DNA of 40,711 bases from positions 1 to 40,711 of the forward strand of contig WRNV01000014.1 in NCBI GenBank assembly GCA_009776445.1, written 5' to 3'. The stretch comes from Oscillospiraceae bacterium. Its GTDB lineage: Bacteria > Bacillota > Clostridia > Oscillospirales > Oscillospiraceae. Both the position numbers and the translations under genes were made by a program. Below, piece after piece: positions 1,619 through 25,738 of this stretch (within the stretch, counting starts at the first letter, position 1; each line of letters opens with the position of its first letter). Under the pieces are notes generated by a model, which saw only the letters and a list, made by a program, of their open reading frames with translations, was not told the DNA's origin and ran no database searches.

Positions 1619-1639
1619 AATTAGTCACATTTAATTATT

Positions 1640-1645
1640 GGGAGG
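1640..1645 (+). promoter_or_regulatory. Ribosome binding site GGGAGG for the ABC exporter
   Basis: GGGAGG ends 8 nt before the TTG at 1654. This selects TTG 1654 over an in-frame TTG at 1615 that overlaps the NRPS stop codon and has no good site upstream. Confidence 0.7.
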
Positions 1646-1653
1646 TTATATCT

Positions 1654-3411
1654 TTGAATAAATCGATCGAGTTTAGAAATTGTAAAAATACATTTATGGC
1701 GAAAAACAAACTCAATTTCGCTCTCACTGCCTTACTACAAATCTTAGTAACAGCAGTCACTATATCTTTAGCTTATGTTCTGATGGTTGTCGTACAATCG
1801 ATGGAACAAAAGGACACAGCGATGTTCTTTCAGTCGTTGATCTATATAGGTATCATAATGGTATCATTCTTATTATTCAGTACATTGCTGAAAACAATAA
1901 AGAATAATTATATTAAAAAGGCCCTTGCTCAATTCAAAAAATATATATTCAAAAAGATATTGGACAAATCAGTTGGCGAGTTTAGCGGAGAATTATCCGG
2001 GAAAATCATCAGCTTGTTTTCCAATGACTTGAATTCCATTGAATTGAATTATCTCAGTGGGACAATTATGATTATTAGCTACATTTTTATGTTTATAGTT
2101 ACAATAGCTGCGATGGCTCTTATAAATGTAACCATTATGCTGTGTGTTCTTGGGATATGCATAATACCAGTCCTAGCTTCTTTGGTTTTTGGTAAAAAAC
2201 TTATGAAAAAAGAAAAAGAGACTTCTATTGAAAATGAAGGATTTATCGAGCAGATCAGAGATTTGCTTGGAGGGTTCTATGTAATAAAGAGTTTTAAAGC
2301 GGAAAAAGAGGTGATTAATCTATTTGGCAATCAAAACTTCATTTTGGAGGAAGCCAAGAGAGGTCGAAGAGACGCTAATGATATTATGACTATGACTGCC
2401 CAATTATCTTCCGTCTTAGTGCTGGTGGTCATATTGATTCTTGGGATAATATTTATTTTTCAGGAGACCATGACAATAGCGACAGTTATCGCCTGTATTC
2501 AGCTTTCCAACCATGTGGTGGACCCAACCAAGTTCTTGTTACCTTTGATCACAAACAGGAGAGCGGCGAGTGTATTAATTAATAAAATAGCGGACGTTGT
2601 CGAATATCATGAGGATACGGGCGAAAAAACTAAGATCAGCCGTATTGACAATTCGATAAAACTTTCGGAATTAACAGTTAAGTATGAAAAAGATAAGGTT
2701 GCGCTGAAAAATGTTAATCTTGAGTTTAAAAAAGGTAAAAGCTATGCGTTGGTGGGCGGAAGCGGATCAGGAAAATCCACTTTGCTAAAACTGTTGATGG
2801 GATATTTTAACGATTATCAGGGGACAGCTAAATATGACGATAATGAAATTATCGATATTGACTTGGACAGCCTCTATGATGTAGTAGCAGTTGTTCAACA
2901 GAATGTGTTTCTCTTTGATAAAAGCATCAAAGATAATATTACTATGTTTAAAGAATTCACTGAAGAAGAAATTGACCAAGCTGTTTTAGTGTCTGGTTTG
3001 TCTTCTCTTATATCGGAAAAAGGCATGGAGTATACATGCGGTGAAAACGGGTGCAATCTGTCGGGAGGAGAAAAGCAGCGCGTTTCAATTGCAAGATGTT
3101 TGATCAAAGGGACACCAGTCTTGTTGATGGATGAGGCGACAGCTTCTTTAGACAATGCGACTGCGTTTCAGGTGGAAAACGACATTTTGGACATGGATAT
3201 GTTGACAAGGATTATCGTTACTCACCGTCTTCAAGAGCAGCTCTTAAATAAGTATGATGAAATTATTGTACTAAAAGATGGTGCTTTAGAAGAGCAAGGT
3301 GGATTTGACAATTTGATGAATGCGAAAGGTTATTTCTACTCCTTGTATAATGTTGCTAATGCTAATGCTAATGCCAATGATAATGCTCATTTGGCTAAAG
3401 AGGTGAAATAA
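1654..3411 (+). CDS. ABC exporter, fused membrane and ATPase domains
   Basis: Half-size exporter of the lipid/peptide/multidrug type that would work as a homodimer in the cytoplasmic membrane. The N-terminal ~320 residues carry about six hydrophobic segments. The ATPase half has Walker A GGSGSGKST (about residue 368), a Q-loop (VVQQNVFLFD), signature LSGGEKQR (about 469), Walker B VLLMDEATASLD (about 489) and an H-loop (VTHR). All catalytic motifs look intact. The TTG start follows GGGAGG. The C-terminus carries a short Ala-Asn repeat made by a hexanucleotide repeat. The stop codon overlaps the next start by one base (TAATG), so translation is probably coupled. Placed between the NRPS and precursor genes, it is a good candidate for export of the cluster product, but the substrate is an inference. 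Confidence 0.9.
   Translation: MNKSIEFRNCKNTFMAKNKLNFALTALLQILVTAVTISLAYVLMVVVQSMEQKDTAMFFQSLIYIGIIMVSFLLFSTLLKTIKNNYIKKALAQFKKYIFKKILDKSVGEFSGELSGKIISLFSNDLNSIELNYLSGTIMIISYIFMFIVTIAAMALINVTIMLCVLGICIIPVLASLVFGKKLMKKEKETSIENEGFIEQIRDLLGGFYVIKSFKAEKEVINLFGNQNFILEEAKRGRRDANDIMTMTAQLSSVLVLVVILILGIIFIFQETMTIATVIACIQLSNHVVDPTKFLLPLITNRRAASVLINKIADVVEYHEDTGEKTKISRIDNSIKLSELTVKYEKDKVALKNVNLEFKKGKSYALVGGSGSGKSTLLKLLMGYFNDYQGTAKYDDNEIIDIDLDSLYDVVAVVQQNVFLFDKSIKDNITMFKEFTEEEIDQAVLVSGLSSLISEKGMEYTCGENGCNLSGGEKQRVSIARCLIKGTPVLLMDEATASLDNATAFQVENDILDMDMLTRIIVTHRLQEQLLNKYDEIIVLKDGALEEQGGFDNLMNAKGYFYSLYNVANANANANDNAHLAKEVK
3355..3384 (+). repeat. In-frame hexanucleotide repeat (GCTAAT-type) at the exporter 3' end
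   Basis: Five consecutive hexamers (GCTAAT three times, then GCCAAT and GATAAT) encode Ala-Asn pairs ending in Asp-Asn. The unit is two codons long, so copy-number change would not shift the frame. Confidence 0.8.
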
Positions 3412-4163
3412 TGCCTATTATCTTTAAAAAAACTCCGTTGCTGACCGATGCCATACTGCACTATTGCCCCGGTTGCACACATGGCATTATACAAAGACTC
3501 GTAGCAGAAACCATTCAGGAAATGGGAATAGCCGATCGGGTAATCGGTGTCGCGTCGGTAGGTTGTGGCACCATGATCTATGAATACATAGACTGTGATT
3601 TTGTGCAGGCAGCTCATGGGCGCGCTCCAGCTGTTGCCACTGGTGTCAAACGATCGAGATCAGATGCGGTGGTGTTTACCTATCAAGGCGACGGCGACTT
3701 AGCCGCCATCGGCACAGCCGAAACCATACACGCTGCGGCGCGCGGTGAGAACATTACGGTAATATTTGTTAATAACGCCATTTATGGCATGACAGGTGGA
3801 CAAATGGCTCCAACCACAATGCCGGGACAGATCACCCAAACTTCACCCAATGGGAGAGATATAGGTACCACGGGCTTCCCTGTGCGAGTGTGCGAGCTGC
3901 TAGCCACAATCGACGGTGTTTCCTATATTGAGCGGGTGTCCGTCGATAGCGCTAAAAATGTTCATGTGGCTAAAAAAGCCATCCAGCGCGCCTTTAGGCG
4001 ACAGATTGTTTGCGGCGGCTTTTCGCTGGTAGAGGTGTTATCCACCTGCCCTACCAACTGGGGGATGGAACCGATTCAGGCACTGGAGTGGCTACGCGAT
4101 AAAATGATACGCTATTATCCTTTAGGCGTGTATAAGGACAAGATATCATCTGATGAAGGATAG
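3411..4163 (+). CDS. korB: 2-oxoacid:ferredoxin oxidoreductase, beta (TPP-binding) subunit
   Basis: This is the thiamine-diphosphate subunit of a KGOR/VOR-type oxidoreductase, which interconverts a 2-oxoacid plus CoA with acyl-CoA, CO2 and reduced ferredoxin. The protein has the usual ~250 residues. HYCPGCTHG supplies two cysteines for the [4Fe-4S] cluster, with further cysteines in SVGCGT and STCPTNWGM. The TPP/Mg motif starts at QGDGD and continues to FVNNAIYGMTGGQ. The ATG overlaps the exporter stop, with AGAGGTGA as ribosome binding site. The other three subunits are 17.7 kb downstream at 21878-23767, beyond the PKS genes. Base composition is visibly more GC-rich than the exporter before it. 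Substrate (2-oxoglutarate, branched-chain or aromatic oxoacid) cannot be told from sequence; the family is certain. Confidence 0.93.
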   Translation: MPIIFKKTPLLTDAILHYCPGCTHGIIQRLVAETIQEMGIADRVIGVASVGCGTMIYEYIDCDFVQAAHGRAPAVATGVKRSRSDAVVFTYQGDGDLAAIGTAETIHAAARGENITVIFVNNAIYGMTGGQMAPTTMPGQITQTSPNGRDIGTTGFPVRVCELLATIDGVSYIERVSVDSAKNVHVAKKAIQRAFRRQIVCGGFSLVEVLSTCPTNWGMEPIQALEWLRDKMIRYYPLGVYKDKISSDEG

Positions 4164-4164
4164 T

Positions 4165-4172
4165 AAAGGAGG
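4165..4172 (+). promoter_or_regulatory. Ribosome binding site AAAGGAGG for the acyl-CoA ligase
   Basis: A near-perfect Shine-Dalgarno sequence lies 10 nt before ATG 4183. It argues against the in-frame ATG at 4153, which is inside the korB reading frame. Confidence 0.75.
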
Positions 4173-4182
4173 AGTTGACGGT

Positions 4183-5904
4183 ATGAACGCTAAACAAGCT
4201 TTCAGAATTACCCAGTATAACTTAGCCAGTGACACACAAGATTTAAAAACTACGAAAGAATTAATGGAAATTACAATCGGAGATTTACTCAACGACGCGG
4301 CTGCGCGCTACCGGGACAGAAATTTTGCGGTATACAGTGATGTGCCTTTTCGTGTCACCTATTACGAATTTCTGAAGAAAGTCAACAAAATAGCGAAAGG
4401 TCTTATCAAGATTGGCGTAAAAAAGGGTGACCACATTGCCATATGGGCGACAAACTATCCTGAGTGGTTATTGACAATGTTCGCCAGCGCAAAGATAGGG
4501 GCAGTCCTTGTAACTGTAAATACCAATTATAAAACATCTGAAATAGAGTACATATTAAAGCAATCGGATACGTATACATTAGTTATGATAAACGGTATTA
4601 AGGAGCTAAACTACAATGAGATAATCCAAAAGATCGTTCCAGAACTCAAAGGAAGTAAGCCCGGTGAATGGAAATCAAAGAAACTGCCAGAATTAAGGAA
4701 TATCATAAATATAAACAATGAAAACATTGATGGAATCATTCCTTGGAATCAATTATACCAGCTGGCGGAAGATGTATCAGACGAAGAATTGGAACGACGC
4801 GAGCGAGCTGTAGATCCTCACGACATAGCAAGTATCCAGTACACTTCAGGAACGACGGGATTCCCTAAGGGTGCTATGCTTACGCACTATAACATTATAA
4901 ATAACGCTCTTTTGGTTGGAAACTGTATGAAGTTCTCAGAAGAAGATATCTTATGTGTCACCGTCCAATTTTTTCACTGCTTTGGTATCGTATGCTCTGT
5001 TTTGGCATGTGTCACGCATGGCTCAAGCATGGCGCCAGTAGAGCATTTTAACCCAAGAGCGGTCATTGACACGGTAATAAAAGAAAAATGTACTGCGTTA
5101 TACGGTGTACCAACGATGTTCATATCAATCCTCAGCCAACCAGACTTTAAAGAATATAATTTTTCATCTCTGCGGACCGGTATAATGGCTGGCTCAATCT
5201 GCCCCAGTAAACTTATGAGGCAGACTGTGGATGAGCTAAATATGAGAGAAATCACCATTGCCTATGGCCAAACTGAAGCCGGACCTGTCTGCACGCAGAC
5301 AACGACATCAGACTCCCAGGAATTACGCGTCTCCACCGTCGGACGCGCCTTACCCTTTGTGGAGTGTAAGATCGTAGATCCAAAAACAGGACTGGAATGT
5401 CCGCCAAACGTACCTGGTGAATTCATTGCAAAAGGATTTGGCGTTATGAAGGGTTATTATAATATGCCAGAAGCCACCGCTCGCACAATCAAACATGGTT
5501 GGTTACATACGGGCGATCTCGCCACTTGCGATGAGAACGGGTACTATATGATTACCGGTCGGATTAAGGACATGGTCATACGAGGCGGAGAGAACATATA
5601 CCCGAGAGAAATAGAAGAATTCCTATACACCCACCCAAAAATCTCTGAAGTACAGGTGGTCGGCGTCCCAAGCGAGAAATACGGGGAAGAATTATTCGCG
5701 TATATATTACCAGTGGACGGCGAAACCATTAGTGAAGATGAAGTGAGGGAGTTTGCTTCTCAAAACTTAGCCCAGTATAAAACTCCACGTTACATCAAAA
5801 CTATACAGCAGTTTCCAATGACAGCAAGCGGAAAGATCCAAAAGTATAAGCTACGCGAAATGGCCGCCATTGAGCTGGGATTGGTGATGGCAGATAGTAA
5901 ATAG
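4183..5904 (+). CDS. AMP-forming acyl-CoA ligase
   Basis: Stand-alone ANL-superfamily enzyme of about 573 residues, the usual size for medium/long-chain or aryl acyl-CoA synthetases. Visible motifs in order are the P-loop YTSGTTGFPKGA (about residue 220), the A5-type AYGQTEAGP, the A7/A8 region HTGDLA then GRIKDMVIRGGENIYP, and the catalytic A10 lysine in TASGKIQKYK. No carrier domain is attached, so CoA is the likely acceptor. It starts 20 nt after korB and is probably co-translated with it, which suggests the two act on the same acyl-CoA. It could activate a starter acid or feed acyl-CoA to the oxidoreductase running in reverse. The acid is not predictable from the motifs I can see. Confidence 0.9.
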   Translation: MNAKQAFRITQYNLASDTQDLKTTKELMEITIGDLLNDAAARYRDRNFAVYSDVPFRVTYYEFLKKVNKIAKGLIKIGVKKGDHIAIWATNYPEWLLTMFASAKIGAVLVTVNTNYKTSEIEYILKQSDTYTLVMINGIKELNYNEIIQKIVPELKGSKPGEWKSKKLPELRNIININNENIDGIIPWNQLYQLAEDVSDEELERRERAVDPHDIASIQYTSGTTGFPKGAMLTHYNIINNALLVGNCMKFSEEDILCVTVQFFHCFGIVCSVLACVTHGSSMAPVEHFNPRAVIDTVIKEKCTALYGVPTMFISILSQPDFKEYNFSSLRTGIMAGSICPSKLMRQTVDELNMREITIAYGQTEAGPVCTQTTTSDSQELRVSTVGRALPFVECKIVDPKTGLECPPNVPGEFIAKGFGVMKGYYNMPEATARTIKHGWLHTGDLATCDENGYYMITGRIKDMVIRGGENIYPREIEEFLYTHPKISEVQVVGVPSEKYGEELFAYILPVDGETISEDEVREFASQNLAQYKTPRYIKTIQQFPMTASGKIQKYKLREMAAIELGLVMADSK

Positions 5905-5933
5905 ATCAAGAGATGTCAATGATTCCATCTATG

Positions 5934-5940
5934 AAAGGGG
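5934..5940 (+). promoter_or_regulatory. Ribosome binding site AAAGGGG for the FtsX-type permease
   Basis: AAAGGGG is 8 nt before ATG 5949, which favours that start over the in-frame ATGs at 5913 and 5931. Confidence 0.65.
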
Positions 5941-5948
5941 ATTTTGCA

Positions 5949-8231
5949 ATGTGGCAAAAAAAAGTCATTCATAAGAAATGGCAGTTTCTTCTCATAGGAG
6001 TAATTTTCTTTGTAACAGCTATGATGTTTAGCTCATGTCTTGGGTTTGTTTTGGAGACATCGGAGTTCGCACAAACGGCTATCAACGAGGAAAATTGTCC
6101 TGACGCCTATATTCTAACAGTGGGGTCAACGGGTTTTTCAGACAACTTTCCGGATGCTTCATATGAGGCGGAAATCCTGAATGTTACGGCTTTAGCAGGG
6201 AAAACAATTACGGCTCCAATTCTGTATGAAGATAGGGATATCACCATGACGTTTGATATGTTGCTGGATGGGAGCAACTATAGAAAATGGGGTTATCTAG
6301 AACTGAGCCAAGGTGATGCATCCACTTCTGGCCCCCAAAATGGAGAAGTGTGGATTTCCGAAACTGTGGCTGTCCCCAGCAATATTGCGGTAGGTGATAC
6401 CATAATTTTGGATTATCCTGAAAGGTTGTCATTAGCGGTATCTGGAATCTATAAAACAACATGCTTCCCGAGAGCGCTGGGATACGCCCCAATGCTGGTG
6501 TCTCCGGATACCCTAATGTTTGCTGAAGATGGAGATGACTCGGCGTTATTCGCTGTGAATGTGAGAGATTACAGTAATGATAAGGTAAAGGGACTTTTTG
6601 AAGATTCGCCTTTCTGTGTCCTGGCCAAAACTAGGGATGACGTTAGGATGAGTTTGGAAGAATACTCTGGGACATTTGGGGCAATTGGAATAGTTGCGGT
6701 AGTCTTCATATTTTTGCTGACATTAATTATCATCAATTTCATTATATATAGCAATATAATGAAGGAGTATAGAAGTATTGGCATATACAAAAGCTTGGGG
6801 TATTCATTGAGAAAGATTTCTAGGTTTTATACAACCGGGTATTTTGTTCTTGGAATTACATTTTTCACACTTGGGGCGTTGGCTTCACTAATCATCATTC
6901 AGGCTTTGGGAAATATGTCTGCTGTATTTGTTGACCGGTTCTCCCTATCAAATGCTTCACTTATATCTATTATTGTGACAATAATCGTACTAATACTGCT
7001 TTTGATTATTGTGTTGACTACGGTGCTGCGGAAAATTAAAGTGATCACCCCTGTGGAAGCGATATCGATGGGGTTGGTTATGACTGATAAAAAAATGCCC
7101 GATTCAGTAATCAAAAACGCCGGTACACCGGCCAGTATGGCTATAAATGAAATATTCAAGTACAAAAAAACTACATTCCTAACCGCTTTGGTTATTGTGG
7201 TGTCTATGTTTTTGTCCATGCTGTTCGTTATGATATGCAACTCTTCCTTTAAAATGCTTGTGAATGCGAATTTGTGGTTTTGTCTTCCTAAAAGCGACCT
7301 ATATATAACGGGCAATATCAATGATACGTTGATCGATGATATATCAAAGTCGCAATATGTCAAAACGGCGGTGTACGGAGACTTTTCCTACAAGAGCCAG
7401 ATAAAGGTGGAGGGCTATGAGAGTATTATTAAATATCTTCGATTCGATGCTTATAGTGAACTGACAGAAAGTATAACCGGAATAAGGGTTTTATCAGGTA
7501 AAGCGCCTACTGGCAGTGATGAGGTGATGATAGGGAACGGTTTATCATCGTTGCTTGGCCTTCGTGCTGGAGATTCGATAAAGCTGACTTTGAACCATGT
7601 GACGAAAGATTATACGATCACCGCCGTATACGCCACGGTGGCTGATAATGGGACAAAGATTATTATGACGACGGACGCGTTGAGAAATAGTGTACCTGAT
7701 TATATTTACCAACGAGCGTTTATTTCCTTAAAAAACAACGATGATTTTGAGCTTTTTAAAGATGACATAGAGAGGAAGGCATTAGGAATTTCAGTAAGTA
7801 AACGCTGGTTTGCCGTGGAAACAACAGTTGCTTCTGTCCAGGCTATGCTGAATTCTATTTCTATTTTGTTAACGAGTTTATTCATTCTGTTTTCATTGCT
7901 TAATATTGTTATTGTGGTCAACATGGAGCATAAAAATCTTAGACGTACATTCGGTATAATGAAATCCCTGGGATTCACAAGTCGCTATATCATAAAGCGG
8001 GATCTGGTTAAATATTTAATCATATCTTCTGTATCAACAGTGATAGCGCTTGTTCTTCACTTGGCATTATCACAAAATCTGATGGCAGCAGTTTTTATTG
8101 ATGCATTTACAAACAGTTCGATAACGCTGGGGATGCTTACTGTTGGGTTTGTCGTCCTTGTGCTTTTGTTTGTATTATTATTATCTCAACCAGTGAAAAA
8201 AATATCACCGGTGGAATTGATGGAGGAATAG
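5949..8231 (+). CDS. ABC transporter permease with two FtsX-type domains
   Basis: Large membrane protein of about 760 residues in the MacB/LolC/FtsX permease family. From the start chosen here, a first TM helix (about residues 10-32) is followed by an extracellular domain of about 200 residues and three TM helices. A further TM near the middle, a second extracellular domain and three C-terminal TM helices then repeat the pattern, giving a tandem FtsX layout. Typical family signatures are the repeated 'YKSLGYSLRKI' and 'MKSLGFTSRYI' stretches and the 'TPVEAI'/'SPVELM' ends of each unit. Its ATPase follows 2 nt later. Such type VII ABC systems move molecules across or out of the membrane or confer peptide resistance. 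In this cluster it may export the product or protect the producer; this role is inferred. Confidence 0.88.
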   Translation: MWQKKVIHKKWQFLLIGVIFFVTAMMFSSCLGFVLETSEFAQTAINEENCPDAYILTVGSTGFSDNFPDASYEAEILNVTALAGKTITAPILYEDRDITMTFDMLLDGSNYRKWGYLELSQGDASTSGPQNGEVWISETVAVPSNIAVGDTIILDYPERLSLAVSGIYKTTCFPRALGYAPMLVSPDTLMFAEDGDDSALFAVNVRDYSNDKVKGLFEDSPFCVLAKTRDDVRMSLEEYSGTFGAIGIVAVVFIFLLTLIIINFIIYSNIMKEYRSIGIYKSLGYSLRKISRFYTTGYFVLGITFFTLGALASLIIIQALGNMSAVFVDRFSLSNASLISIIVTIIVLILLLIIVLTTVLRKIKVITPVEAISMGLVMTDKKMPDSVIKNAGTPASMAINEIFKYKKTTFLTALVIVVSMFLSMLFVMICNSSFKMLVNANLWFCLPKSDLYITGNINDTLIDDISKSQYVKTAVYGDFSYKSQIKVEGYESIIKYLRFDAYSELTESITGIRVLSGKAPTGSDEVMIGNGLSSLLGLRAGDSIKLTLNHVTKDYTITAVYATVADNGTKIIMTTDALRNSVPDYIYQRAFISLKNNDDFELFKDDIERKALGISVSKRWFAVETTVASVQAMLNSISILLTSLFILFSLLNIVIVVNMEHKNLRRTFGIMKSLGFTSRYIIKRDLVKYLIISSVSTVIALVLHLALSQNLMAAVFIDAFTNSSITLGMLTVGFVVLVLLFVLLLSQPVKKISPVELMEE

Positions 8232-8233
8232 TC

Positions 8234-8989: not shown

Positions 8990-9020
8990 TTCTGAGGTCT
9001 ATATTGAAGGATTATTGCAC

Positions 9021-9767: not shown

Positions 9768-9796
9768 TATTTAATATTTTACAAGGGGGATTAACT

Positions 9797-15700: not shown

Positions 15701-17206
15701 CTCAAAGGGTTGTTTAACCTGACTCAGTCGTTGGACAAAAACGGCTTGATTGGTGAGTGCGTTATAAAGATAGTGACAAGAGGAGCACAGAGGGTTGCCG
15801 GTCAAGGCTCTGTCAATCCAGGGCAATCTTTGCTTTGGGGATTCGCAAAAACGCTACGCCTGGAATATCCGCATTTTTACGGTGGAATAATTGATATGGA
15901 AGTAGCGGATTTTAGTGGGCAGGCGGAGGTTCTCGCGTTGGAAATCGCTAATGAGATGAACGACGAGGTTTGCTTACGTGGTGGGAAAAGATACATCAGT
16001 ATGCTAGTTAATCAGGAGAGCCACACAAAAAATGAAAATGCGGGAAAAATTGAGATAAGTGATAACGCGACTTACATCATTACCGGGGGTACCGGTGCCT
16101 TGGGAATGAGTTACGCAAAGATATTGATAGAAAAAGGCGCCAGAGTTCTTGTTTTGGTGTGCAGACGCGAACCAAACGAAAAAGTAAGAGAAACCTGCGC
16201 TCAATGGAGCAAGATTGGGGTCAATATTAAATTTGCGTTTTTGGATGTCGTCGAAGAAAAACAAGATGCTTTAATGGAAATCTGCGCGCAACTTCCTCCG
16301 GTCAAGGGCATAATACATGCCGCTGGTACGCTCAATGACCGCGTAATCGCCGATCTGACATGGAAGGACTTTGAATTTGTGCTCAACCCCAAAATTCAAG
16401 GAGCCTGTAATATGTACAGATTGTTTGAGAAAGAGGAGCTTGATTTCTTCCTGATGACATCGTCCATAACTTCTGTGCTCGGCAACCTTGCTCAAAGTAA
16501 CTATGCGGCTGCGAACTCATTTATGAACAGCTTGGCGCAATGGATGAACGCTATTGGAAAACCCGGGTTCTCATATTGCTGGGGTCCATGGGAAACCGGC
16601 ATGGCAGGAGACGATATTATTAGGAAAAACATAGATCGCATGGGGATACACCCATTAACCACCGAGACGGCGGAAAAAATGATAAGTGATTTTTTTGAAA
16701 TGCCGTTCACCAATATCATAGGTGCGGATGTTGATTGGGAAAAATACGTCCGAATAGCCAGCGGCGAGACTCTAGGAGCGTTTTATTCCCAGGTCGTGGG
16801 GAAGGGCGCTACGCCGAAAGAAGATCAGACTACTAGTGCGGAGCATTCTATTCTCAGAGAACTCAAAAACTTGACACAAGATAAAAGGAAGAGTGTTTTA
16901 ATTGTCGAATTACAAAAGATATGCGGAAAGATATTGGGCTTTGAGAAGGATCAGCTGCCTCAGGCGGATAAATCCTTTAAGGAGCTAGGCGCTGATTCCT
17001 TAATGATCTTTTCAATACGCAGCTCTGTCAACAAACTATTGGAAATGGACCTGAAGGTGTCGGATTTTTATAATTTTCCCACGCTTATTAAGTTGGTGGA
17101 ACACTTAATTGATGATGTTTTGTTTGAGCAGGAAGAAGAAACGGAGATTTCTTATCTTGAAATCGACGAGTTGACTGATGAATTAGAAAGGATGATTTAT
17201 TCGTGA
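9797..17206 (+). CDS. PKS 1: fatty-acyl-AMP ligase - ACP - KS - AT - DH - KR - ACP
   Basis: Loading plus first extension module, 2469 residues. An N-terminal FAAL-like domain (1-550; YTSGSTGSPKGS about 161, MYGLSEATAV) adenylates a carboxylic acid. ACP1 (about 590-665) has its expected serine at about 615 in FGVVSIN. The ketosynthase (675-1100) has Cys849 in DTACSSSL, His984 in HGTGT and His1024 in SNIGH. The acyltransferase has Ser1303 in GHSIGEY and an HGFH motif, which points to malonyl-CoA. The dehydratase keeps His1609 and Asp1775 (DSVLQ), but the Gly of HxxxGxxxxP is Asp. The ketoreductase (GGTGALG about 2097, Ser2223, Tyr2236) has an LND motif, as in B-type enzymes. ACP2 has Ser2401 in LGADSL. 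No enoylreductase is present, so a 2-enoyl product is expected. The acidic C-terminal tail may dock to PKS 2, whose GTG start overlaps by 4 nt. Confidence 0.94.
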   Translation: MQNQIDISERLRLAAEHKNGITLIGQDEDVFLSYSEVWKSGLFLSNHLKSLGVKPGNEIVIQCKKLKYRIYAFWACLLGGFVAVPVEVGNNQYQAEANNKIYKMLNQPYFLFDTTENNETKDPIFYNQAQALNISLLDYTGTTVETDIYQPSVDDISYLQYTSGSTGSPKGSILKTSNIAADVNGIIERYEIDESDSILSWQSLNHCYGLVAYHLVGVACGINQYLIPTELYMHNPLIWFEKANQYKTTRLGTIPFAMRHFINFHEKSMETKDWDLSFVKSLFVGAELVKEELCDKFVEVTKKYNLPCGVVKPMYGLSEATAVVTAVGMERPFSKYKMRRDSFNIGDKAVWDDNFDTNKSITFTGVGKVLSGSKIRIADDMGSPLPEHTIGNVLISGTIVTAGYYKAPIETQESFGEDGWLRTGDIGFLNDGELVIIGRNKEIIVVAGMKYTCNVIEDMIHQKIEAHYGQPVVCSCVNPKRKSEGAVVFIQCNLDFEDPQELRSFIEYGNDIRDLVYKDVGFIIDNVVPVQVIPKTASGKVRRRLLGDQFNRGEFAKVIELLDQAKQQEKQTEKREGSSYSRASIADTMVKVIREMFSLEIDDYNLAFQDFGVVSINVPPFIKRINQIFSTDFHIASFFNYSSVNKLSEYIYNELTNKEKYLVSDNLSSKVEHEDRVAIIGMSCRFPGGANSVKEFWDVLVNGKDGIIEVPENRWDMGKYFDEDENAPGKMYCQKGGFLTKAIDEFDAQFFNISPKEAAALDPQQRMMLELTWEAFENAGLDITKFNGSDTGVYLGISTNEYMMAHVHSGDLSKIDAYSLTGACISTACGRISYTFGFEGPSLTVDTACSSSLTALHVACKEMKEGAMEMAVVGGVNLMVTPAPNVGFSKLRATSKDGHSKSFDASASGYGRAEGAGIILLKMLSKAQRDNDIILGVIDGTCINQDGKSNGLTAPNGVAQTKLIEKALASAQLSSNDIDYVEMHGTGTPLGDPIEVSSVVAAYCKNRDSYNPLKIGSVKSNIGHTEAAAGMASIIKVLLSFKHNLIPANLHFKNPNPLIDWNSFPVEVVKEHAAWNADGKLRRAGINGFGFGGSNAHVILEDYQETQATDQKTGNGINYILKISAKKEVSLLKKIEQYEATIAECAEGSFGDFVYSANRGRADMDCRFAVTGDSKSEILERIRTYLAGGSPEGVYSSAEINPASLKNRKIVFMFTGQGSQYLGMGKMLFETQEVFKEAITECDRMFYPYILRSVIELIYGTNTSEELIENTANAQCLIFSIEYALWKLWKSYGINPEIVMGHSIGEYPAAVASGMLSLEDAVKLVSIRGRLMDSAPGKGAMGTIFEEESKVGSMLEGYLDKVSIAACNARENFVVSGDADAVEEILERSRQQGIKARKLKVSHGFHSNLMEPILGDFKRIADSAVYQKSNIRFVSSMHAREIDENEVLNAEYWTSHIRSKVDFYNAVMSIPNPSDYIFLEIGSKRVLSALCTLIFDGIGVVAASLNPKKSDERQLAESIAMLYSAGVDLDWEQIECKGQKTWTRIELPNYHFDRIKHWKMPVYDRENTGEITEKGYPVLGQKIESPFLNGTTVFQRRFSSKEPYFMREHIIFDTYISPAAAHTSMLLSAMKEIANSKNCKLVEVELRSPLAIYGDEERTVQICVEKDVWSGSDFSIISRKVEGGDWVIHAKGKVVARTEFAETENKFDLEEIKELPFEIDQGIYEVMHASGFRLGDSFRRIMKVYSEDDHGICYIEPLRTVPEFDDYEFYPGLIDSVLQTMFCVELRKYREDENVMQRKKTIVPYFLGEISYNYVKSDKLWVKIDVKTENDIVQGNMDVFNENGETVMILRDILAKLTERETLLADLGKDRSDFYYQVDWVETERNKNAETQKKYVIIADDQTEAYELCQYLDVGEENCYSIDLCDNEDNVKLLENIQKAKREIVYLPGAGEGADQDLAADAFFGLKKLKGLFNLTQSLDKNGLIGECVIKIVTRGAQRVAGQGSVNPGQSLLWGFAKTLRLEYPHFYGGIIDMEVADFSGQAEVLALEIANEMNDEVCLRGGKRYISMLVNQESHTKNENAGKIEISDNATYIITGGTGALGMSYAKILIEKGARVLVLVCRREPNEKVRETCAQWSKIGVNIKFAFLDVVEEKQDALMEICAQLPPVKGIIHAAGTLNDRVIADLTWKDFEFVLNPKIQGACNMYRLFEKEELDFFLMTSSITSVLGNLAQSNYAAANSFMNSLAQWMNAIGKPGFSYCWGPWETGMAGDDIIRKNIDRMGIHPLTTETAEKMISDFFEMPFTNIIGADVDWEKYVRIASGETLGAFYSQVVGKGATPKEDQTTSAEHSILRELKNLTQDKRKSVLIVELQKICGKILGFEKDQLPQADKSFKELGADSLMIFSIRSSVNKLLEMDLKVSDFYNFPTLIKLVEHLIDDVLFEQEEETEISYLEIDELTDELERMIYS

Positions 17207-20200
17207 GCGAAGATAATAATCAGAAATATAAAGATGCTCTTAAAAAGTCGGTAAAAAAAATCAATGAACTCAGTGATCGTCTAAAACGGTCCGAAAACAA
17301 GCAAGAGATTGCGATCATTGGTTATGGATGCCGTTTTCCCGGGGGCGCAAACGATCCTGAAAAGTTTTGGGAATTGCTCAAACAAGGATTCGACGCATCT
17401 TCGGAGATACCAAATGACCGTTTTGACGTTGACAAGTATTATGACGGCGAAAAGGGTCCCGGGAAAACAACGACAAACCGCGCTTCATTTCTAGACTGCG
17501 ATATCAAAGGATTCGATAATCTTCATTTTGGAATTTCCGCAATAGAAGCTCCTTCCATCGACCCACAGCAAAGGCTGTTAATGGAAGTTTGCTGGGATAC
17601 GATTGAAGTGGCAGGTTTAAATATCGAGAAACTCAAAGGGAGTAATACCGGCGTATTTATCGCTATGGATTCTTTTGAATACGGTACAGCGGAACTCTTT
17701 TCCGGAGACACCATGGATATTAGCCCTTATTCAATTGTCGGAGTTTGCCAGCACTCAGCGGCAGGGCGACTGTCATACTTCTATGATTTTAAAGGCCCGG
17801 CTGTGCTTTGTAATACGGCTTGCTCGTCCTCGCTGTCGGCGATTGACATCGCTGTTGAAAGTCTTCGATCTGGGCAATGTGATCTGGCAGTTGTGGGGGG
17901 ATCGAGTCTCTTACTGACCCCAGAGGCCTTTGTTGGGCTCTCGCAGATGGAAGGGCTTTCCCCCGATGGACGCTGCAAATCCTTTTCTAGCGCTGCAGAC
18001 GGATTTGGGCGGGGAGAGGGATGCGGGGTCGTATTACTCAAAAGGATGGAGGACGCCAAGAGGGACGGCAACTTTGTAGAAGCAATCATAAAAGGGATAT
18101 GCATAGGGCAGGATGGTAGGTCAAACGGGTTTTTTGCGCCTAATGGTTTGTCAGAAGAAAAAGTAATGAAACGCGCGCTGGATTTTGCGGGACTTTCCGC
18201 AGACGAAGTGGACTTCATAGAGACACACGGAACAGGGACAACGCTGGGCGATCTCATGGAATCCCAGGCGATTGCCGGGGCATATAAAAACAGAAAAACT
18301 CCCATGAGAATTGGAGCGGTAAAATCCAATATTGGGCATCTTGAGGCGGCGGCTGGCATGGCAGGGCTAATCAAAGTGCTGTTGTCTATGCGTTATGATA
18401 AGATCCCTCCAAGTATAAATTGCGACACCCTCAACCCCATGATAGATTGGGAAAAAATTGAACTTGTAAGGGAACTTACGGATTGGGGGAAGCCGAAAGG
18501 AAAAAGAAGGGCTGGGATCAGCGCTTTTGGGATTAGTGGAGCGTTAGCGCACGTGATTATTGAGGAACCGGAGGAAATCGTTAAGCCTTCTGAAAAACTC
18601 CCTGTTCACCTGATGGCGCTTTCTGCCCAAAATGAGCAGGCGCTACGGAACAGCGTAGAAGATATGGCAGCTTTTATGCGGGATTCGCATGTTGAGCTGA
18701 GCGACGCCGCATACTCGTCAATAATGACTAAAAGCCAGTTTGATCATCGTTTTGCCATGGTCAGCAAGAACAGGGAAGAGTTAATCACATCCTTGCAGGA
18801 AGCTCTTGAGCAGGAAAGTGTTTACAGTTATCATTCAGGAACAACGCTCAGAGATAAAGACAAAATTGCGTTTCTGTTTACAGGGCAGGGGTCAATATAC
18901 AATGGAATCGCAACTCAATTCTATCATTCTTCGGAAGAATACCGGCGAGAGTTTGACCGCTGTGACCGACTTTTTCAGGATATTTTGGGGATATCGATTG
19001 TAAAGGCGGTTTTTGAAGGCGACGAAAAGACGCTTTCACGTCCACTCTATTCCCAACCGGTCATCTTTTCAGTAGAATATTCGCTGACAAAGCTTTGGGA
19101 TGCTATTGGAATTAAACCGTCTGTCGTTATCGGCCACAGTATAGGCGAATATGCGGCGGCTTGCTACGCTGGGTTGATGGATATAGAGACCGCCGCTCGC
19201 ATGATCGCTTGGCGCGCAAAGATTATGGAATCAGTCGAGCCAGATGGCAAAATGGTGGGGGTACTTGCCAATTATGGAATTGTTTTGGACGCGATTGCCG
19301 AGAGTGGTTGCAAAAACGTATCGGTTGCTGCCATTAACGCTCCTGATAACGCAACTATTTCCGGTCTCTGCCATGAGGTGGACCAAGTGGTATCAGTCAT
19401 ACAGAAAAAAACAAGGGTTTTCATAAATGATCTGAAAATAATCCATCCTTTTCATTCTGTCGTTATGGATCAATACGTAAAGGGATATTCTGAAAAACTA
19501 AAGGAAATTAAATTTTCAGAACCGAGGATACAAATCATCTCCTGTGTGAATGGGAAAACTTCTGGTGGCAAATACATGGGCAATAGTCGGTATTGGTCTA
19601 ACCATCTGAAAACGACTGTGAATTTTCAGGCGGCGATGGAAGAGGCGCAACGGCTGGGTGTCAATGTATTTATTGAAATCGGTGGAATCGCGACGCTTTG
19701 CGGACTTGCGGCTCAATGTATAGATCAGGAAGGCACCGCTTTTTTACCTTCGCTTAGAAAGGACTCAAATGACTATGAACAGTTTTTTGAATCGATAAAA
19801 CATCTCTACCTGCGTGGGTACCCTTTAGATTGGGTTGGATTTTATAAGAATTACGAAAGGAAGAAGATACTATTACCTGGATACCCGTTTCAAAAGAAGC
19901 ATTTTTGGCGCGAGTTCAAGAATCGCGCAGACTATTACAATTCAGAAACTTTAGGAATGTCCGATTGCGATGGAAAGCCTGAGAATAATGCGCTAGCCCC
20001 AGAGGGACTGCATATGCAGAAGAATTCTCCCGATTCTGACTATGCGCCGCAGAGCAGTGCGAAATCAAACCGGGAGGCCGTAGAATTATTAAAACACGGT
20101 CAAATACCCAAAAACATTGCTTATGCCCACTATAACGCTGGAGGCGCAACAATAGAGAGTATACAGACACTGTTTAATAATCAGCATAAAATCATAAGTG

Positions 20201-21792
20201 AGCAAAACCAGATAATTCGGGAGTTCTCAAGACTAAAACCAGTATCCAAGCCTATGAGTCAGCCTCCTGAAAAGTTTGTACAACAGGAGAAGGAGAAGGA
20301 GAAGGATAAGGAGAAGGATAAGGAGAAGGATAAGGAGAAGGATAAGGAGAAGGCAAAGGAGGAAGTAACCCAATCGAAAAAGGATTACTATGTTCCTTAC
20401 AAAAGATTTAAGGTGAGGGACAAGTCATCGCTGGAGGATTTGCAGTATCAATATTTGAAAAATATTGAAGCTAAATATGTTAAGATGACCAAGACTTCGA
20501 AGATCCGTACACAGCAATACAGAAGCGTTTACGCCAATGCTAGAAATACTGTTAATTTTAGCAAACTCTATAAAAATATGCTTTATCAGATTATTGGCGA
20601 ACGTAGCAAGGGATCTAGAATTACCGACGTTGACGGCAATGAGTTGATTGATATTGTTATGGGCTTTGGTGTGCATTTATTTGGGCACAGCCCTGAGTTT
20701 ATTAAGCGTGAGCTTATAGAAGAGCTTGATCGCGGAGCACCTCTGGGGCCAATGGGCCGGTTACCTGGAGAAGTTGCGCGGCAAATCTCAGAAATGACGG
20801 GTGTTGACAGGGCGTTTTTCTGTAACTCAGGCACCGAAGCAAACATGTTTGCTATGAGAATCGCTAGGGCTATTACCAGCAGGCCAAAAGTGGTGTGCTT
20901 TACGGGCGCTTATCATGGGACACTGGACGGGCTCCTTGGCATACAGACTTTTGACAAAAATGGGGAAATTACCAGCGCGCCACTGGCGCCAGGAATAACC
21001 GAAAACTCGGTCCGAGACCTCGTTCTCGTGCAATACGATAATGAGTCCTCACTGAAATATATTGAAGAACATGCTGGGGATATTGCTGCAGTATTGGTCG
21101 AAACAGTGCAGAGCAGACGCCCAGAGCTTCAACCAAAAGAATTCTTACAAAAGCTGCGTGAAATTACAGCCAAACTAGATATTGCGCTGATTTTTGACGA
21201 GATGATTACCGGATTCAGGATTAGCGAGGGAGGAGTGCAGCAGCACTTTGGAATACAGGCTGACATCGTGACATACGGGAAAATCATTGGGGGTGGTATG
21301 CCCATCGGAGTTGTTGCCGGAAAATCAAAATATCTGGACAGTATTGACGGAGGCATGTGGAATTTCGACGATGATTCAGTTCCTCCTTGTGATGAAAAAA
21401 GAACCTACGCAGCGGGAACTTTTTGCCAGCATCCTATGGCTATGGCTGCGGCAAATGCGGTTTTAAAGTATATACGCGCAAATAAAGATACAATATATCC
21501 CGAACTTAATAAAAAGTCGGACTATTTTGTACTCAAAGCAAATGAGTTCTTTCAAGGGGAAGACATTGACATGAAAGTCGTCAATTTCGGCTCGCTTTTC
21601 CGATTCTATTTTCCGCGCGAATGCGAAATCTTCTATTACGGTTTGTTAGAAAAAGGTGTTTATATATGGGAGGGGAGAAATTGCTTTTTCTCAACGGAGC
21701 ACTCCTATGCAGATATTGAATTGATTCTTGAGTCCGTCAAAAAGACAGCTCTGGAGATGAAGGAAGCTGGATATTTCGGGACTTCCTTGTAG
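17203..21792 (+). CDS. PKS 2: KS - AT - class III aminotransferase, no carrier domain visible
   Basis: Second extension module, 1529 residues. The N-terminal ~38 residues form a charged helix suited to docking. The ketosynthase has Cys207 (NTACSSSL), His342 (HGTGT) and His379 (SNIGH). The acyltransferase has Ser646 in GHSIGEY and an HPFH motif, so malonyl-CoA is likely. A post-AT linker (about 900-1100) contains a Glu/Lys/Asp repeat. The C-terminal ~420 residues are a PLP-dependent aminotransferase of the GSA-aminotransferase type fused to PKSs in iturin/mycosubtilin pathways: NSGTEANMF, Asp1332 in IFDEMITGFR, Lys1360 in YGKIIGGG. It would convert the beta-keto group to a beta-amine. I looked for an ACP between AT and aminotransferase and found none, which is abnormal because both domains need a carrier-bound substrate. 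No thioesterase or C domain follows. The GTG start overlaps PKS 1 by 4 nt. Confidence 0.93.
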   Translation: MSEDNNQKYKDALKKSVKKINELSDRLKRSENKQEIAIIGYGCRFPGGANDPEKFWELLKQGFDASSEIPNDRFDVDKYYDGEKGPGKTTTNRASFLDCDIKGFDNLHFGISAIEAPSIDPQQRLLMEVCWDTIEVAGLNIEKLKGSNTGVFIAMDSFEYGTAELFSGDTMDISPYSIVGVCQHSAAGRLSYFYDFKGPAVLCNTACSSSLSAIDIAVESLRSGQCDLAVVGGSSLLLTPEAFVGLSQMEGLSPDGRCKSFSSAADGFGRGEGCGVVLLKRMEDAKRDGNFVEAIIKGICIGQDGRSNGFFAPNGLSEEKVMKRALDFAGLSADEVDFIETHGTGTTLGDLMESQAIAGAYKNRKTPMRIGAVKSNIGHLEAAAGMAGLIKVLLSMRYDKIPPSINCDTLNPMIDWEKIELVRELTDWGKPKGKRRAGISAFGISGALAHVIIEEPEEIVKPSEKLPVHLMALSAQNEQALRNSVEDMAAFMRDSHVELSDAAYSSIMTKSQFDHRFAMVSKNREELITSLQEALEQESVYSYHSGTTLRDKDKIAFLFTGQGSIYNGIATQFYHSSEEYRREFDRCDRLFQDILGISIVKAVFEGDEKTLSRPLYSQPVIFSVEYSLTKLWDAIGIKPSVVIGHSIGEYAAACYAGLMDIETAARMIAWRAKIMESVEPDGKMVGVLANYGIVLDAIAESGCKNVSVAAINAPDNATISGLCHEVDQVVSVIQKKTRVFINDLKIIHPFHSVVMDQYVKGYSEKLKEIKFSEPRIQIISCVNGKTSGGKYMGNSRYWSNHLKTTVNFQAAMEEAQRLGVNVFIEIGGIATLCGLAAQCIDQEGTAFLPSLRKDSNDYEQFFESIKHLYLRGYPLDWVGFYKNYERKKILLPGYPFQKKHFWREFKNRADYYNSETLGMSDCDGKPENNALAPEGLHMQKNSPDSDYAPQSSAKSNREAVELLKHGQIPKNIAYAHYNAGGATIESIQTLFNNQHKIISEQNQIIREFSRLKPVSKPMSQPPEKFVQQEKEKEKDKEKDKEKDKEKDKEKAKEEVTQSKKDYYVPYKRFKVRDKSSLEDLQYQYLKNIEAKYVKMTKTSKIRTQQYRSVYANARNTVNFSKLYKNMLYQIIGERSKGSRITDVDGNELIDIVMGFGVHLFGHSPEFIKRELIEELDRGAPLGPMGRLPGEVARQISEMTGVDRAFFCNSGTEANMFAMRIARAITSRPKVVCFTGAYHGTLDGLLGIQTFDKNGEITSAPLAPGITENSVRDLVLVQYDNESSLKYIEEHAGDIAAVLVETVQSRRPELQPKEFLQKLREITAKLDIALIFDEMITGFRISEGGVQQHFGIQADIVTYGKIIGGGMPIGVVAGKSKYLDSIDGGMWNFDDDSVPPCDEKRTYAAGTFCQHPMAMAAANAVLKYIRANKDTIYPELNKKSDYFVLKANEFFQGEDIDMKVVNFGSLFRFYFPRECEIFYYGLLEKGVYIWEGRNCFFSTEHSYADIELILESVKKTALEMKEAGYFGTSL
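20287..20352 (+). repeat. 12-bp in-frame tandem repeat in the PKS 2 linker
   Basis: GAG AAG GAT AAG occurs four times in tandem (20299-20346), flanked by GAG AAG units, and encodes a Glu-Lys-Asp-Lys linker at about residues 1029-1050, between the AT and the aminotransferase. The repeat is a multiple of three, so slippage would change linker length without breaking the protein. Confidence 0.9.
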
Positions 21793-21877
21793 CTTGTCCA
21801 ATCATGAAAAGCACAGTAGAAATAACACAATGCCTGAGATTCTGCCAAAATAAAGAAACTGAAAGAGGGTTCATCCT

Positions 21878-22084
21878 ATGCCCCGAGTAACCATTAATTC
21901 CGAACGTTGTAAGAGCTGCGAGCTGTGTGTGGCGGCCTGTCCGAAAAAGATAATTTTTCTTGACAATACGCAGCTTAATGCCTTTGGTTATCATCCTGTC
22001 AGTGTCGTGGATCAAGATGCATGTATAGCATGCGCCTTTTGCGCGATAATGTGTCCAGACAGTGTTATTCAGATAGAAAAGTGA
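21878..22084 (+). CDS. korD: 2-oxoacid:ferredoxin oxidoreductase, ferredoxin (delta) subunit
   Basis: Small 68-residue protein with two [4Fe-4S] motifs, CKSCELCVAACPKK and CIACAFCAIMCPDS, each in the CxxCxxCxxxCP form. It passes electrons between the catalytic subunits and free ferredoxin. The ATG at 21878 follows an AAAGAGGG sequence. It lies 85 nt after PKS 2 and begins the second block of oxidoreductase subunit genes (ferredoxin, alpha, gamma). The order is that of common clostridial KGOR/VOR operons except that the beta gene, normally between alpha and gamma, is missing here. Confidence 0.92.
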   Translation: MPRVTINSERCKSCELCVAACPKKIIFLDNTQLNAFGYHPVSVVDQDACIACAFCAIMCPDSVIQIEK

Positions 22085-22130
22085 GACGCGTCGCGCGAAT
22101 CAATCTTGAACAACGAATCACATAATCCTG

Positions 22131-22137
22131 AAAGGGG
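22131..22137 (+). promoter_or_regulatory. Ribosome binding site AAAGGGG for korA
   Basis: AAAGGGG ends 7 nt before ATG 22145 and decides this start over an in-frame TTG at 22106. Confidence 0.7.
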
Positions 22138-22144
22138 TATCGAT

Positions 22145-23203
22145 ATGTCTGAAAAAGTCCTTATGAAGGGTAACGAAGCTATTGCCGAGGCTGCCATACG
22201 GTCCGGGTGTTTATATTACTTTGGTTATCCAATTACACCACAAAACGAGATAGCCACCTACATGTCCCGTCATATGCCCCAGGCTGGAGGTTTATTTCTA
22301 CAAGCTGAGAGTGAAATTGCCGCCATCAACATGGTGTTGGGCGCGTCGGCAGCAGGTGTGCGGGCTATGACATCCAGTTCCAGCCCCGGTATCTCCCTCA
22401 AAAGCGAGGGGCTGTCCTATATGGCCGGTTGTGATCTGCCGGCGGTAGTCGTCAACATACAACGCGGCGGGCCCGGATTGGGAGGTATACAGCCGTCGCA
22501 GGCCGATTATTTTCAGGCCACCAAAGGCATTGGCCACGGTGACTTTCACCTAATCGTGCTAGCTCCCAACAACCTCCAAGAGATGGTGGACTTGACCGTG
22601 CAGGCTTTTAATTTAGCCGACATGTATCGCATGACTGCTATGGTTTTAGCCGACGGCATACTGGGTCAAATGATGGAGCCAGTCGTTTTACCTGATGACA
22701 AGGGGCAGTTGCCTGTGGGTACTAAAGACTGGGCAGTTACTGGAACAGGTGGGACGCGTAAGCGCAATATTATTAATTCCCTCTACCTTCAACCAAAAGA
22801 ATTGGAAGCCCAAAATTTTATGCGCTATGAACGCTATGCGCAAATTGAAGCGTCTGAGCAGCGTTTTGAATCCTATATGATGGATGATGCTGACATTGTT
22901 GTCACCGCCTATGGCGCGTCGTCCCGTATTGCCAAAAATGCTATTCTGGAAGCCCGCGCCCAAGGCATCAAGGCCGGAATGCTTCGTCCAATCACACTAT
23001 GGCCCTTCCCAAAAACTGCTTTTGCTCAAGCGGCTGAGGTGGCGCTCGCCTTCGTTGTAGTGGAGATGAGCATGGGGCAGATGATTGAGGACGTAGAACT
23101 GGCTATACGATGTCGCCGTCCGGTATACCTGTGCAATCGTACTGGCGGCATGGTGCCAACACCAGAACACATTTTGGAATTGATTAAAAAGGCAGAGAAA
23201 TAA
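22145..23203 (+). CDS. korA: 2-oxoacid:ferredoxin oxidoreductase, alpha subunit (KorA/VorB type)
   Basis: Alpha subunit carrying the pyrimidine-binding and transketolase C-terminal-like domains, about 352 residues. The start [20 protein letters not shown] is characteristic, followed by [41 protein letters not shown] and QRGGPGLGG. The last third, around [17 protein letters not shown], is the C-terminal domain. It is not fused to the gamma domain, unlike some homologues. It lies 60 nt after korD and 24 nt before korC. Sequence style is closest to the 2-oxoisovalerate/2-oxoglutarate branch, but I cannot fix the substrate. It should pair with the distant beta subunit at 3411-4163. Confidence 0.93.
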
Positions 23204-23227
23204 GTCAAAAGACAAGGAGAGACCGAA

Positions 23228-23767
23228 ATGAACGCGAAAATGCTCATCGCCGGTTTTGGCGGACAAGGTGTTCTGTTTGCTGGAAAATTTTTAGTTTTCG
23301 CAGGCATGCTTATCGGAAAAGATATTTCATGGCTACCCGCATATGGTCCCGAAATGCGCGGCGGCACTGCCAACTGCAGTGTTATCCTAAGCGACGAGTC
23401 CATCGGCTCGCCTATTGTGGACAAGCCGGACATTCTAATTGCTTTAAATCTACCATCGTTGGATAAATTCGAGGACATGGTTGTCTCCGATGGACACATA
23501 TTCATCAACAGTTCCTTGATCAATCGCCTTTCACATAGAATCGACGCGGTTAGCTACTATTGCCCTGCTACACGCATCGCTGATGAAAATGGATTGCCTG
23601 GACTAGCCAATATGGTCATGCTGGGACATGTCGTTGCGCACTATAACCTGTATCCTATGGAAGTGTTGGCAGAATCTATGAAAAAGTTAATCACGGGACG
23701 TAAGAAGGAAATGTATGACAAGAATATGGAAGCTCTGAAGTTAGGAATGAAGTATCAGCCTCTTTGA
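23228..23767 (+). CDS. korC: 2-oxoacid:ferredoxin oxidoreductase, gamma subunit
   Basis: Gamma subunit of 179 residues with the usual N-terminus [15 protein letters not shown], which forms part of the CoA-side domain, and the conserved [23 protein letters not shown] 8 nt upstream supports ATG 23228. It completes the four-subunit enzyme with korB, korD and korA. The next gene (CorA-like) starts 34 nt downstream with no evident terminator between, so transcription may continue. Confidence 0.93.
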
Positions 23768-23801
23768 GATTTCCAATTTTGAAACATAAGGATGATATAG
23801 T

Positions 23802-25718: not shown

Positions 25719-25738
25719 CCGTAAGCTCCCCCTTTATA

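Follow-up and report, generated by a model that had tools for sequence, protein, structure and literature searches.

A 2-oxoacid:ferredoxin oxidoreductase operon rearranged inside a rare anaerobic polyketide synthase-nonribosomal peptide synthetase cluster

The 2-oxoacid:ferredoxin oxidoreductases interconvert a 2-oxoacid plus CoA and an acyl-CoA plus CO2, with ferredoxin. The enzymes of the VorB type are assembled from four subunits, delta (ferredoxin), alpha, beta (binding thiamine pyrophosphate, TPP) and gamma, whose genes are called Kor genes below; for Kor enzymes, reductive carboxylation of succinyl-CoA is described in the available part of PMC11304471. A quite different kind of system is represented by the beta-amino-acyl lipopeptide synthetases of the iturin/mycosubtilin and puwainaphycin types, in which a loading ligase, polyketide synthase (PKS) extension and a class III aminotransferase are combined with a nonribosomal peptide synthetase (NRPS). 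The succession of a fatty acyl-AMP ligase (FAAL), PKS, aminotransferase and then NRPS is set out in the accessible text of PMC4219810, and only a small number of polyketides have been described from strict anaerobes according to the portions available of PMC3250452 and PMC5686105. Here, genes of both kinds are found together in the window, a stretch of 40,711 nt that is the whole of contig C14 (WRNV01000014.1) in the metagenome-assembled genome (MAG) GCA_009776445.1 from an Oscillospiraceae bacterium (3.53 Mb in 279 contigs; completeness 88.96%, contamination 6.35%).

The locus is best described as a known enzyme's operon that has been rearranged inside a rare anaerobic PKS-NRPS cluster, a rearrangement that so far is single. 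The left 24.8 kb is a mosaic PKS-NRPS island, probably acquired at least in part, and the balance tips modestly toward a reading in which this island holds a rearranged, complete Vor-type oxidoreductase that would serve the supply of building blocks.

Gene Order of the Oxidoreductase Subunits

An earlier, sequence-only reading of this DNA had placed the beta gene alone near the 5' end and the ferredoxin, alpha and gamma genes past PKS 2, 17.7 kb away; its coordinates are right, the distance being that from the end of beta to the start of the ferredoxin gene. It had also described the split as one around the PKS genes. These do lie between the parts, but so do an acyl-CoA ligase, an FtsX/MacB-type permease, an ATP-binding cassette (ABC) ATPase and a thioesterase.

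How unusual this arrangement is can be judged from two samples of relatives, 109 loci in total, with KorB matches that lack a fetched locus standing outside the count: the best 80 of at least 588 named loci confirmed in a search with the window beta, and the 29 family loci that matched best when 300 family genomes were searched with the same protein. Among the best 80 named loci, alpha lies directly 5' of beta in 77/77 with room for it, ferredoxin directly ahead of alpha in 76/76, and gamma directly 3' of beta in 76/77, which bears out the order ferredoxin-alpha-beta-gamma that had been taken as usual. The sole exception, L037, has ferredoxin-alpha-beta followed by a phosphoesterase gene, a GNAT gene and then gamma (L037 4238-7003); among the loci listed, none is closer to the window beta (75% identity) or alpha (69%). 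The best-matching family loci follow the same pattern, with alpha directly 5' of beta in 27 of the 28 with room (L008 has alpha 484 bases upstream) and gamma after beta in all 27 with room. The sequence-only reading had proposed a search of related genomes for the same split with PKS genes and for an intact operon without them. The latter is the rule among the loci read, whereas no second case of the split, alone or with PKS genes, appears in the layouts of the 109 loci or in the searches with PKS 2 described below. The window does not have the contiguous ferredoxin-alpha-beta-gamma operon, a feature that is a genomic habit and not an enzymatic requirement. No relatives of the window beta were found among viral contigs, and its identity to plasmid records is at most 64%. 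The split is real, is not seen elsewhere within the loci examined and so far represents a single rearrangement.

All of the parts run in the same direction as the PKS genes, and the beta ATG overlaps the exporter stop by one base (TAATG), both as previously read. The ligase ATG at 4183, preceded by AAAGGAGG, sits 19 bases past beta, and from the exporter to the CorA-like gene the intergenic gaps are at most 85 bases, the largest being that between PKS 2 and ferredoxin. Because the gap between alpha and gamma is only 24 bases, no remnant of beta remains there. Promoter-like sites are uninformative (61 versus 49.8 expected in 1-20000, 23 versus 19.0 in 20001-30500); terminator-like sites number 13 versus 14.5 expected and 4 versus 10.6 in the same two segments.

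Identity and Integrity of the Enzyme

The alpha subunit carries the POR_N and PFOR_II domains and passes the NCBIfam VorB model NF005507 (538 bits; cut-off 399). The beta subunit has the TPP-binding domain and the conserved Cys residues, with 118 bits to TIGR02177 (PorB_KorB), below the cut-off of 262; its nearest solved relative by sequence is 8ys5, the beta subunit of a 2-oxoglutarate:ferredoxin oxidoreductase. The gamma subunit has the POR domain (60 bits to TIGR02175, PorC_KorC, below the cut-off of 81), and the ferredoxin has the cysteines of a 2[4Fe-4S] protein at positions 11, 14, 17, 21, 49, 52, 55 and 59 (41 bits to TIGR02179, PorD_KorD, below the cut-off of 60). Of the columns at least 98% conserved among 103 relatives, beta retains 82/84, including C19, C22, C52 and C213, alpha 98/98 and gamma 28/29. 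Since these conserved columns are kept, the four window subunits probably still make a working enzyme. Compared with other VorB-type four-subunit oxidoreductases (NF005507), the window thus has the full set of subunits with their defining domains, and very few of the conserved columns are lost. It differs in that the order is broken, with beta 17.7 kb upstream, in that the genes are embedded in a PKS-NRPS cluster, and in that beta and gamma fall under the cut-offs of the curated models TIGR02177 and TIGR02175.

A second korB beside korA in the assembly, which the sequence-only reading had named as evidence that would overturn the split, is in fact present. Contig C30 of the MAG carries another alpha-beta-gamma set in the usual order, with identities to the window set of 55-56% (beta), 50% (alpha) and 39% (gamma); because this set belongs to another clade, its beta does not refute the split. 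The C30 alpha is also of the VorB type (469 bits; cut-off 399). The contig stops about 100 bases ahead of it, so that a ferredoxin of this set could not be seen. On the 3' side of the C30 gamma comes first a branched-chain amino acid aminotransferase, with 454 bits to NF009897 (cut-off 307). It is followed by a protein resembling isopropylmalate synthase, whose best model gives 338 bits and has a cut-off of 532, and then by an acyl-CoA ligase fused to a TIM barrel. This neighborhood suggests branched-chain acids as the substrates of the C30 set. Further superfamily members in the MAG are indicated by PF01558 matches on contigs C3 and C93.

The search for a window-type beta covered 300 family genomes and 19 genus genomes, the MAG itself being mostly counted in. 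Apart from the MAG, the genus sample comprises 18 genomes. At E <= 1e-60, 15 of these have a KorB, with identities to that of the window no higher than 58%, and 3 have none; a beta of the window type was not found in any of the 18 (best 58%). As the MAG keeps the C30 set and the other 18 genomes do without a window-type beta, the window set is accessory.

History of the Beta Gene

Had the operon simply been interrupted between alpha and beta, ferredoxin-alpha would now lie on one side and beta-gamma on the other; therefore, beta must have changed place. The sequence-only reading had left open whether beta was moved or recruited separately, and of the two the former is favored. Trees were built from 77 of the 104 rows with all three subunits, the window included and 27 family rows left out. 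The window and L037 are sisters in the beta tree (support 99/94) and in the alpha tree (99/87), and they pair weakly in the gamma tree (61/81). Caution is needed with the long end branches of the window in the beta tree and of L037 in the gamma tree, and with the unsettled bootstraps in both. In all three trees, the end branches of the window exceed the median (0.64 versus 0.13, 0.49 versus 0.21 and 0.69 versus 0.23). The GC contents of beta and alpha are likewise close, at 50.3% and 50.7%. Those of ferredoxin (44.4%) and gamma (45.4%) are near those of the PKS genes (43-45%), and the run other than beta and alpha spans 32-45%, including the exporter (35.7%), the thioesterase (34.5%) and the CorA-like gene (31.6%).

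That beta stands alone beside an exporter might be taken to mean that it was recruited apart, from another organism or operon, to serve a different alpha-gamma pair or some other role. This is very improbable: alpha and beta share L037 as their sister at high support, which argues that beta was moved and disfavors a foreign source, and the C30 set owns a beta of its own, from another clade. Most simply, then, beta and alpha would come from one ancestral operon from which beta was later relocated, a history well supported for these two subunits. The displacement could have occurred by transposition of the single gene, or the operon could have been duplicated and the copies then have lost complementary genes, two routes that the data do not separate; no repeats of at least 22 bases that could drive a rearrangement link the junctions in the repeat search.

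The PKS-NRPS Assembly Line

From the NRPS end to the CorA-like gene, open frames and Pfam matches define 13 genes, all on the + strand (Table 1). Besides the NRPS end, no condensation domains were found in the MAG at E <= 0.001; of the NRPS modules that would accept the chain, the window contig holds only this end.

Table 1. Genes of the co-directional run in the left 24.8 kb of the window
Gene product	Positions	Strand	Evidence and remarks
NRPS C-terminal end (carrier + condensation-like)	2..1618	+	PP-binding 3.9e-11, Condensation 5.1e-08; cut by contig start
ABC exporter (membrane + ATPase)	1615..3411	+	ABC_membrane 4.3e-25, ABC_tran 1.6e-29
Beta (TPP) subunit, 250 aa	3411..4163	+	TPP_enzyme_C 7.7e-20
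AMP-forming acyl-CoA ligase, 573 aa, ATG 4183 (open frame from 4153)	4183..5904	+	AMP-binding 3.4e-92
FtsX/MacB-type ABC permease	5913..8231	+	FtsX 1.9e-14, MacB_PCD 2.2e-09
ABC transporter ATPase	8234..8989	+	ABC_tran 1.4e-35
Type II thioesterase-like protein	9015..9767	+	Thioesterase 7.7e-27
PKS 1: FAAL-like loading domain-(carrier, alignment only)-ketosynthase (KS)-acyltransferase (AT)-dehydratase-ketoreductase-acyl carrier protein (ACP)	9797..17206	+	Pfam; one PP-binding stretch, 2372-2437
PKS 2: KS-AT-class III aminotransferase	17203..21792	+	Pfam; no carrier domain detected
Delta (ferredoxin) subunit, 68 aa, eight Cys	21878..22084	+	Cysteine pattern
Alpha subunit, VorB subfamily, best start ATG 22145	22145..23203	+	POR_N 2.1e-50, PFOR_II 2.3e-24
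Gamma subunit	23228..23767	+	POR 3.2e-35
CorA-like transporter, last co-directional gene of run	23802..24800	+	CorA 1.5e-25

The loading domain of PKS 1 is FAAL-like, as in the iturin type, and its best solved relatives are StsA (6ulw, 6ulx) and McyG (4r0m), followed by FAALs. A putative carrier after this domain gives no Pfam match but is covered by the McyG alignment, with its Ser at GVVSI. Where the amino-binding Asp would be, the printed alignment has Cys207, and Gly-Leu replaces the Pro of amino-acid domains, as in the FAALs; the rule for these two places is that given in the accessible part of a review (PMC11253843). From these residues, the substrate is likely a non-amino carboxylic acid, perhaps a 2-oxoacid. 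In PKS 2, no carrier domain was detected between the AT and the aminotransferase, so that a KS-AT-carrier-aminotransferase module is not present as such; the linker joining the two (window 19921-20620) contains a 12-base tandem repeat coding for KEKD. Relative to the synthetases of the iturin/mycosubtilin and puwainaphycin types, the window shares the loading ligase, the PKS extension and the class III aminotransferase with NRPS, but it differs in the missing match to a carrier before the aminotransferase, in a loading domain whose closest solved structures are StsA and McyG, ahead of FAALs, and in the oxidoreductase genes of its run.

The closest comparison is offered by a cluster in genome G620 (locus L139). 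Its PKS 1 is 45% identical to that of the window end to end and collinear with it, and homologous KS-AT (55%) and aminotransferase (56-59%) parts are present. In G620, by contrast, KS-AT and ACP-aminotransferase are separate genes, the NRPS lies downstream, and the place of the Kor genes is taken by a module of 3-hydroxyacyl-CoA dehydrogenase, acyl-CoA dehydrogenase and electron transfer flavoprotein (ETF) beta and alpha genes directly 5' of PKS 1 and in the same direction. A DDE_3 transposase-like frame of 159 aa lies beyond the dehydrogenase/ETF module, the region concerned being L139 7293-19601. Other relatives are scarce. Searches with PKS 2 (400, 391, 22 and 398 genomes; E 1e-120 to 1e-170; the MAG mostly counted in) gave, in 400 family genomes, only the MAG itself and a 34% match in G266 and, in 391 class genomes, six matches including the MAG, with G620 alone above 50% over both parts; none besides the MAG was found in 398 phylum genomes, and none in the 21 other genomes of the family of G620.

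Origin of the Island and Integrity of the Contig

An acquired island fits the distribution of these genes, since PKS 2 has no ortholog-level match besides G620 among the relatives searched and the window-type beta was not found in the 18 other genus genomes. The rarity in relatives of the PKS and of the window Kor type is a better argument for acquisition than is composition. Tetranucleotide distances were compared with those of 19 further MAG stretches, each of 20 kb, 16 of which lie at 0.08-0.15 and three at 0.21, 0.22 and 0.37. Positions 24801-40711 have a distance of 0.097; that of positions 1-24800, 0.25, is high, yet one of the 19 deviates more (0.37). Among smaller pieces, only 1-3410, with the NRPS end and exporter, falls beyond the 95% range for pieces of equal length (0.458 versus 0.329). 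Inside it are the permease-thioesterase segment (0.36 versus 0.375), the PKS genes (0.235 versus 0.268) and the two Kor pieces (0.263 versus 0.354 and 0.25 versus 0.43). In a comparison of 18 genus stretches near pyrB, looking for an empty site, no insertion point could be read; besides pyrB, only the flanking gene at 37815-38861 recurred nearby, in two genus stretches and in another arrangement.

A confounding issue for any such reading is that an error of assembly or binning could have put together pieces that lie apart in the cell. The data come from a single MAG in 279 contigs with 6.35% contamination, GC changes in sharp steps at the exporter/beta and gamma/CorA boundaries, and a short imperfect AATGCT-type repeat lies in the 3' end of the exporter. 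Moreover, the MoxR protein on the window contig is at most 44% identical to its matches in 40 genomes, the MAG included. An error of this kind is nevertheless improbable. The beta/exporter junction is a clean TAATG at which a ribosome-binding site is present and neither frame is broken, the genes at both ends of ferredoxin-alpha-gamma are preceded by ribosome-binding-site-like sequence, and the search for repeats of at least 22 bases gave no family linking the junctions. The right half also agrees with the host in composition and in pyrB, the gene for aspartate carbamoyltransferase (28883-29968), which is single-copy in the MAG and 62-74% identical in 18/18 other genus genomes, so that the contig fits the genus. 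On these two grounds, the suspicion from MoxR that contig C14 is mis-binned was set aside.

Possible Role in Building-block Supply

How an oxidoreductase might have come to serve an assembly line can be proposed in outline. An ancestral ferredoxin-alpha-beta-gamma operon would have been rearranged so that beta came to lie between exporter and ligase, and ferredoxin-alpha-gamma past PKS 2; all of the parts would be made together, and the subunits would assemble in trans into a normal enzyme. This enzyme is predicted to interconvert a 2-oxoacid, probably branched-chain or aryl, and its acyl-CoA. Working with the ligase, it could deliver an acyl-CoA or, in the reductive direction, convert an acid plus CO2 to a 2-oxoacid, and either product might be used as a starter for the FAAL-like loading domain or, once transaminated, as an amino acid for the NRPS. 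Chain extension by a reduced unit on PKS 1 and by a beta-amino unit on PKS 2 would follow, and the NRPS would supply the peptide to which this beta-amino acyl chain is joined. Judged from the layout, membership of the enzyme in the pathway is plausible. A bolder formulation, which is tentative, sees an anaerobic PKS-NRPS cluster with its own ferredoxin-dependent 2-oxoacid oxidoreductase and acyl-CoA ligase, possibly CO2-fixing, that make a 2-oxoacid or acyl starter as an anaerobic counterpart of supply by branched-chain keto acid dehydrogenase.

For the window ligase, the best NCBIfam model is NF009233 (742 bits, below the cut-off of 832), and ligases of the same kind (47-57% identity) occur in 94 of 300 family genomes, the MAG included. 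Of these ligase rows, 78/94 (the window's own excluded) come from genomes with a KorB among the 88 KorB rows listed, and 32 of the 78 lie within 20 kb of a Kor beta on one contig; of these 32, 30 share its strand, and 18 lie downstream of it against 14 upstream. A ligase more than 40% identical is also present on the fetched stretch in 23 of the best 80 named loci. A ligase-Kor neighborhood is common in the family. It counts in favor of the supply reading, as do the genes beside the C30 set, the different acyl-CoA module of L139 and the residues of the loading domain. The ligases of two relatives inspected at full length are TIM-barrel fusions, and most others have open frames that long; in L055 (5508-8024) and L202 (6239-8743), a xylose-isomerase-like TIM barrel is fused to an AMP-forming acyl-CoA ligase.

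Given that ligase and Kor genes adjoin in many family genomes, the island may instead have inserted into or next to a catabolic or assimilatory ligase-Kor locus and disrupted its order, leaving an enzyme of ordinary branched-chain or aryl acid metabolism unrelated to the product. In keeping with such an insertion by-product, the Kor loci fetched have no PKS alignment, bar one weak 24% match (L086), and the Kor pieces lie within the composition range of the host. We consider this unlikely. A plain insertion leaves the place of beta ahead of the ligase unexplained, the tight gaps and overlapping start suggest one transcription unit, and the finding of a window-type beta in 0/18 other genus genomes, in a MAG that has kept the Vor-type set of C30, marks the window set as accessory.

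Several observations weigh against the proposal that the island holds an enzyme for building-block supply. A domain that loads free acids would not use an acyl-CoA directly. With the split known from one genome, an argument for selection from conservation is lacking, and the long Kor branches in the three trees would fit either a new function or relaxed constraint. The window ligase is unfused and at best 57% identical, in a partial match, to the family ligases, so that descent from a Kor-linked ligase would be conjecture. A promoter-like site (9/12) lies in the gap between thioesterase and PKS 1, such sites being near their chance number, and composition is weak evidence for acquisition. The dehydratase of PKS 1 has the motif HxxxDxxxxP, the usual form being HxxxGxxxxP, and the G620 homologue has a carrier before the aminotransferase where PKS 2 is without one; the assembly line of the window may thus be impaired, or may use a carrier in trans. 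Finally, no Kor genes are found in L139/L140, the whole of a 37-kb contig.

This last difference also has a constructive side. Set beside L139, the window suggests that anaerobic modules for acyl supply may be exchangeable among related PKS cores. If the proposed supply role is true, a dedicated ferredoxin-linked enzyme ties assembly-line chemistry to low-potential electrons and perhaps to CO2 fixation. No description of such an oxidoreductase, or of anaerobic producers, paired with polyketide or NRPS biosynthesis was found in the titles and abstract openings of the part of the literature searched.

Other Features of the Window

The right part of the window contains repeats of several kinds. 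Direct repeats form two pairs, one of 55 bases at 98% and one of 70 bases at 91%; they lie at 25740-25873 and 30183-30317, with copies 4.4 kb apart, and flank a block of ABC, CAAX protease and pyrB genes. Tandem repeats of 15 bases (11 overlapping 77-base copies) occur at 35680-35906 in a gene of a MoxR-VWA-BatD block, and the right end of the contig (38978-40705) encodes a protein with Listeria-Bacteroides repeats and SLH domains.

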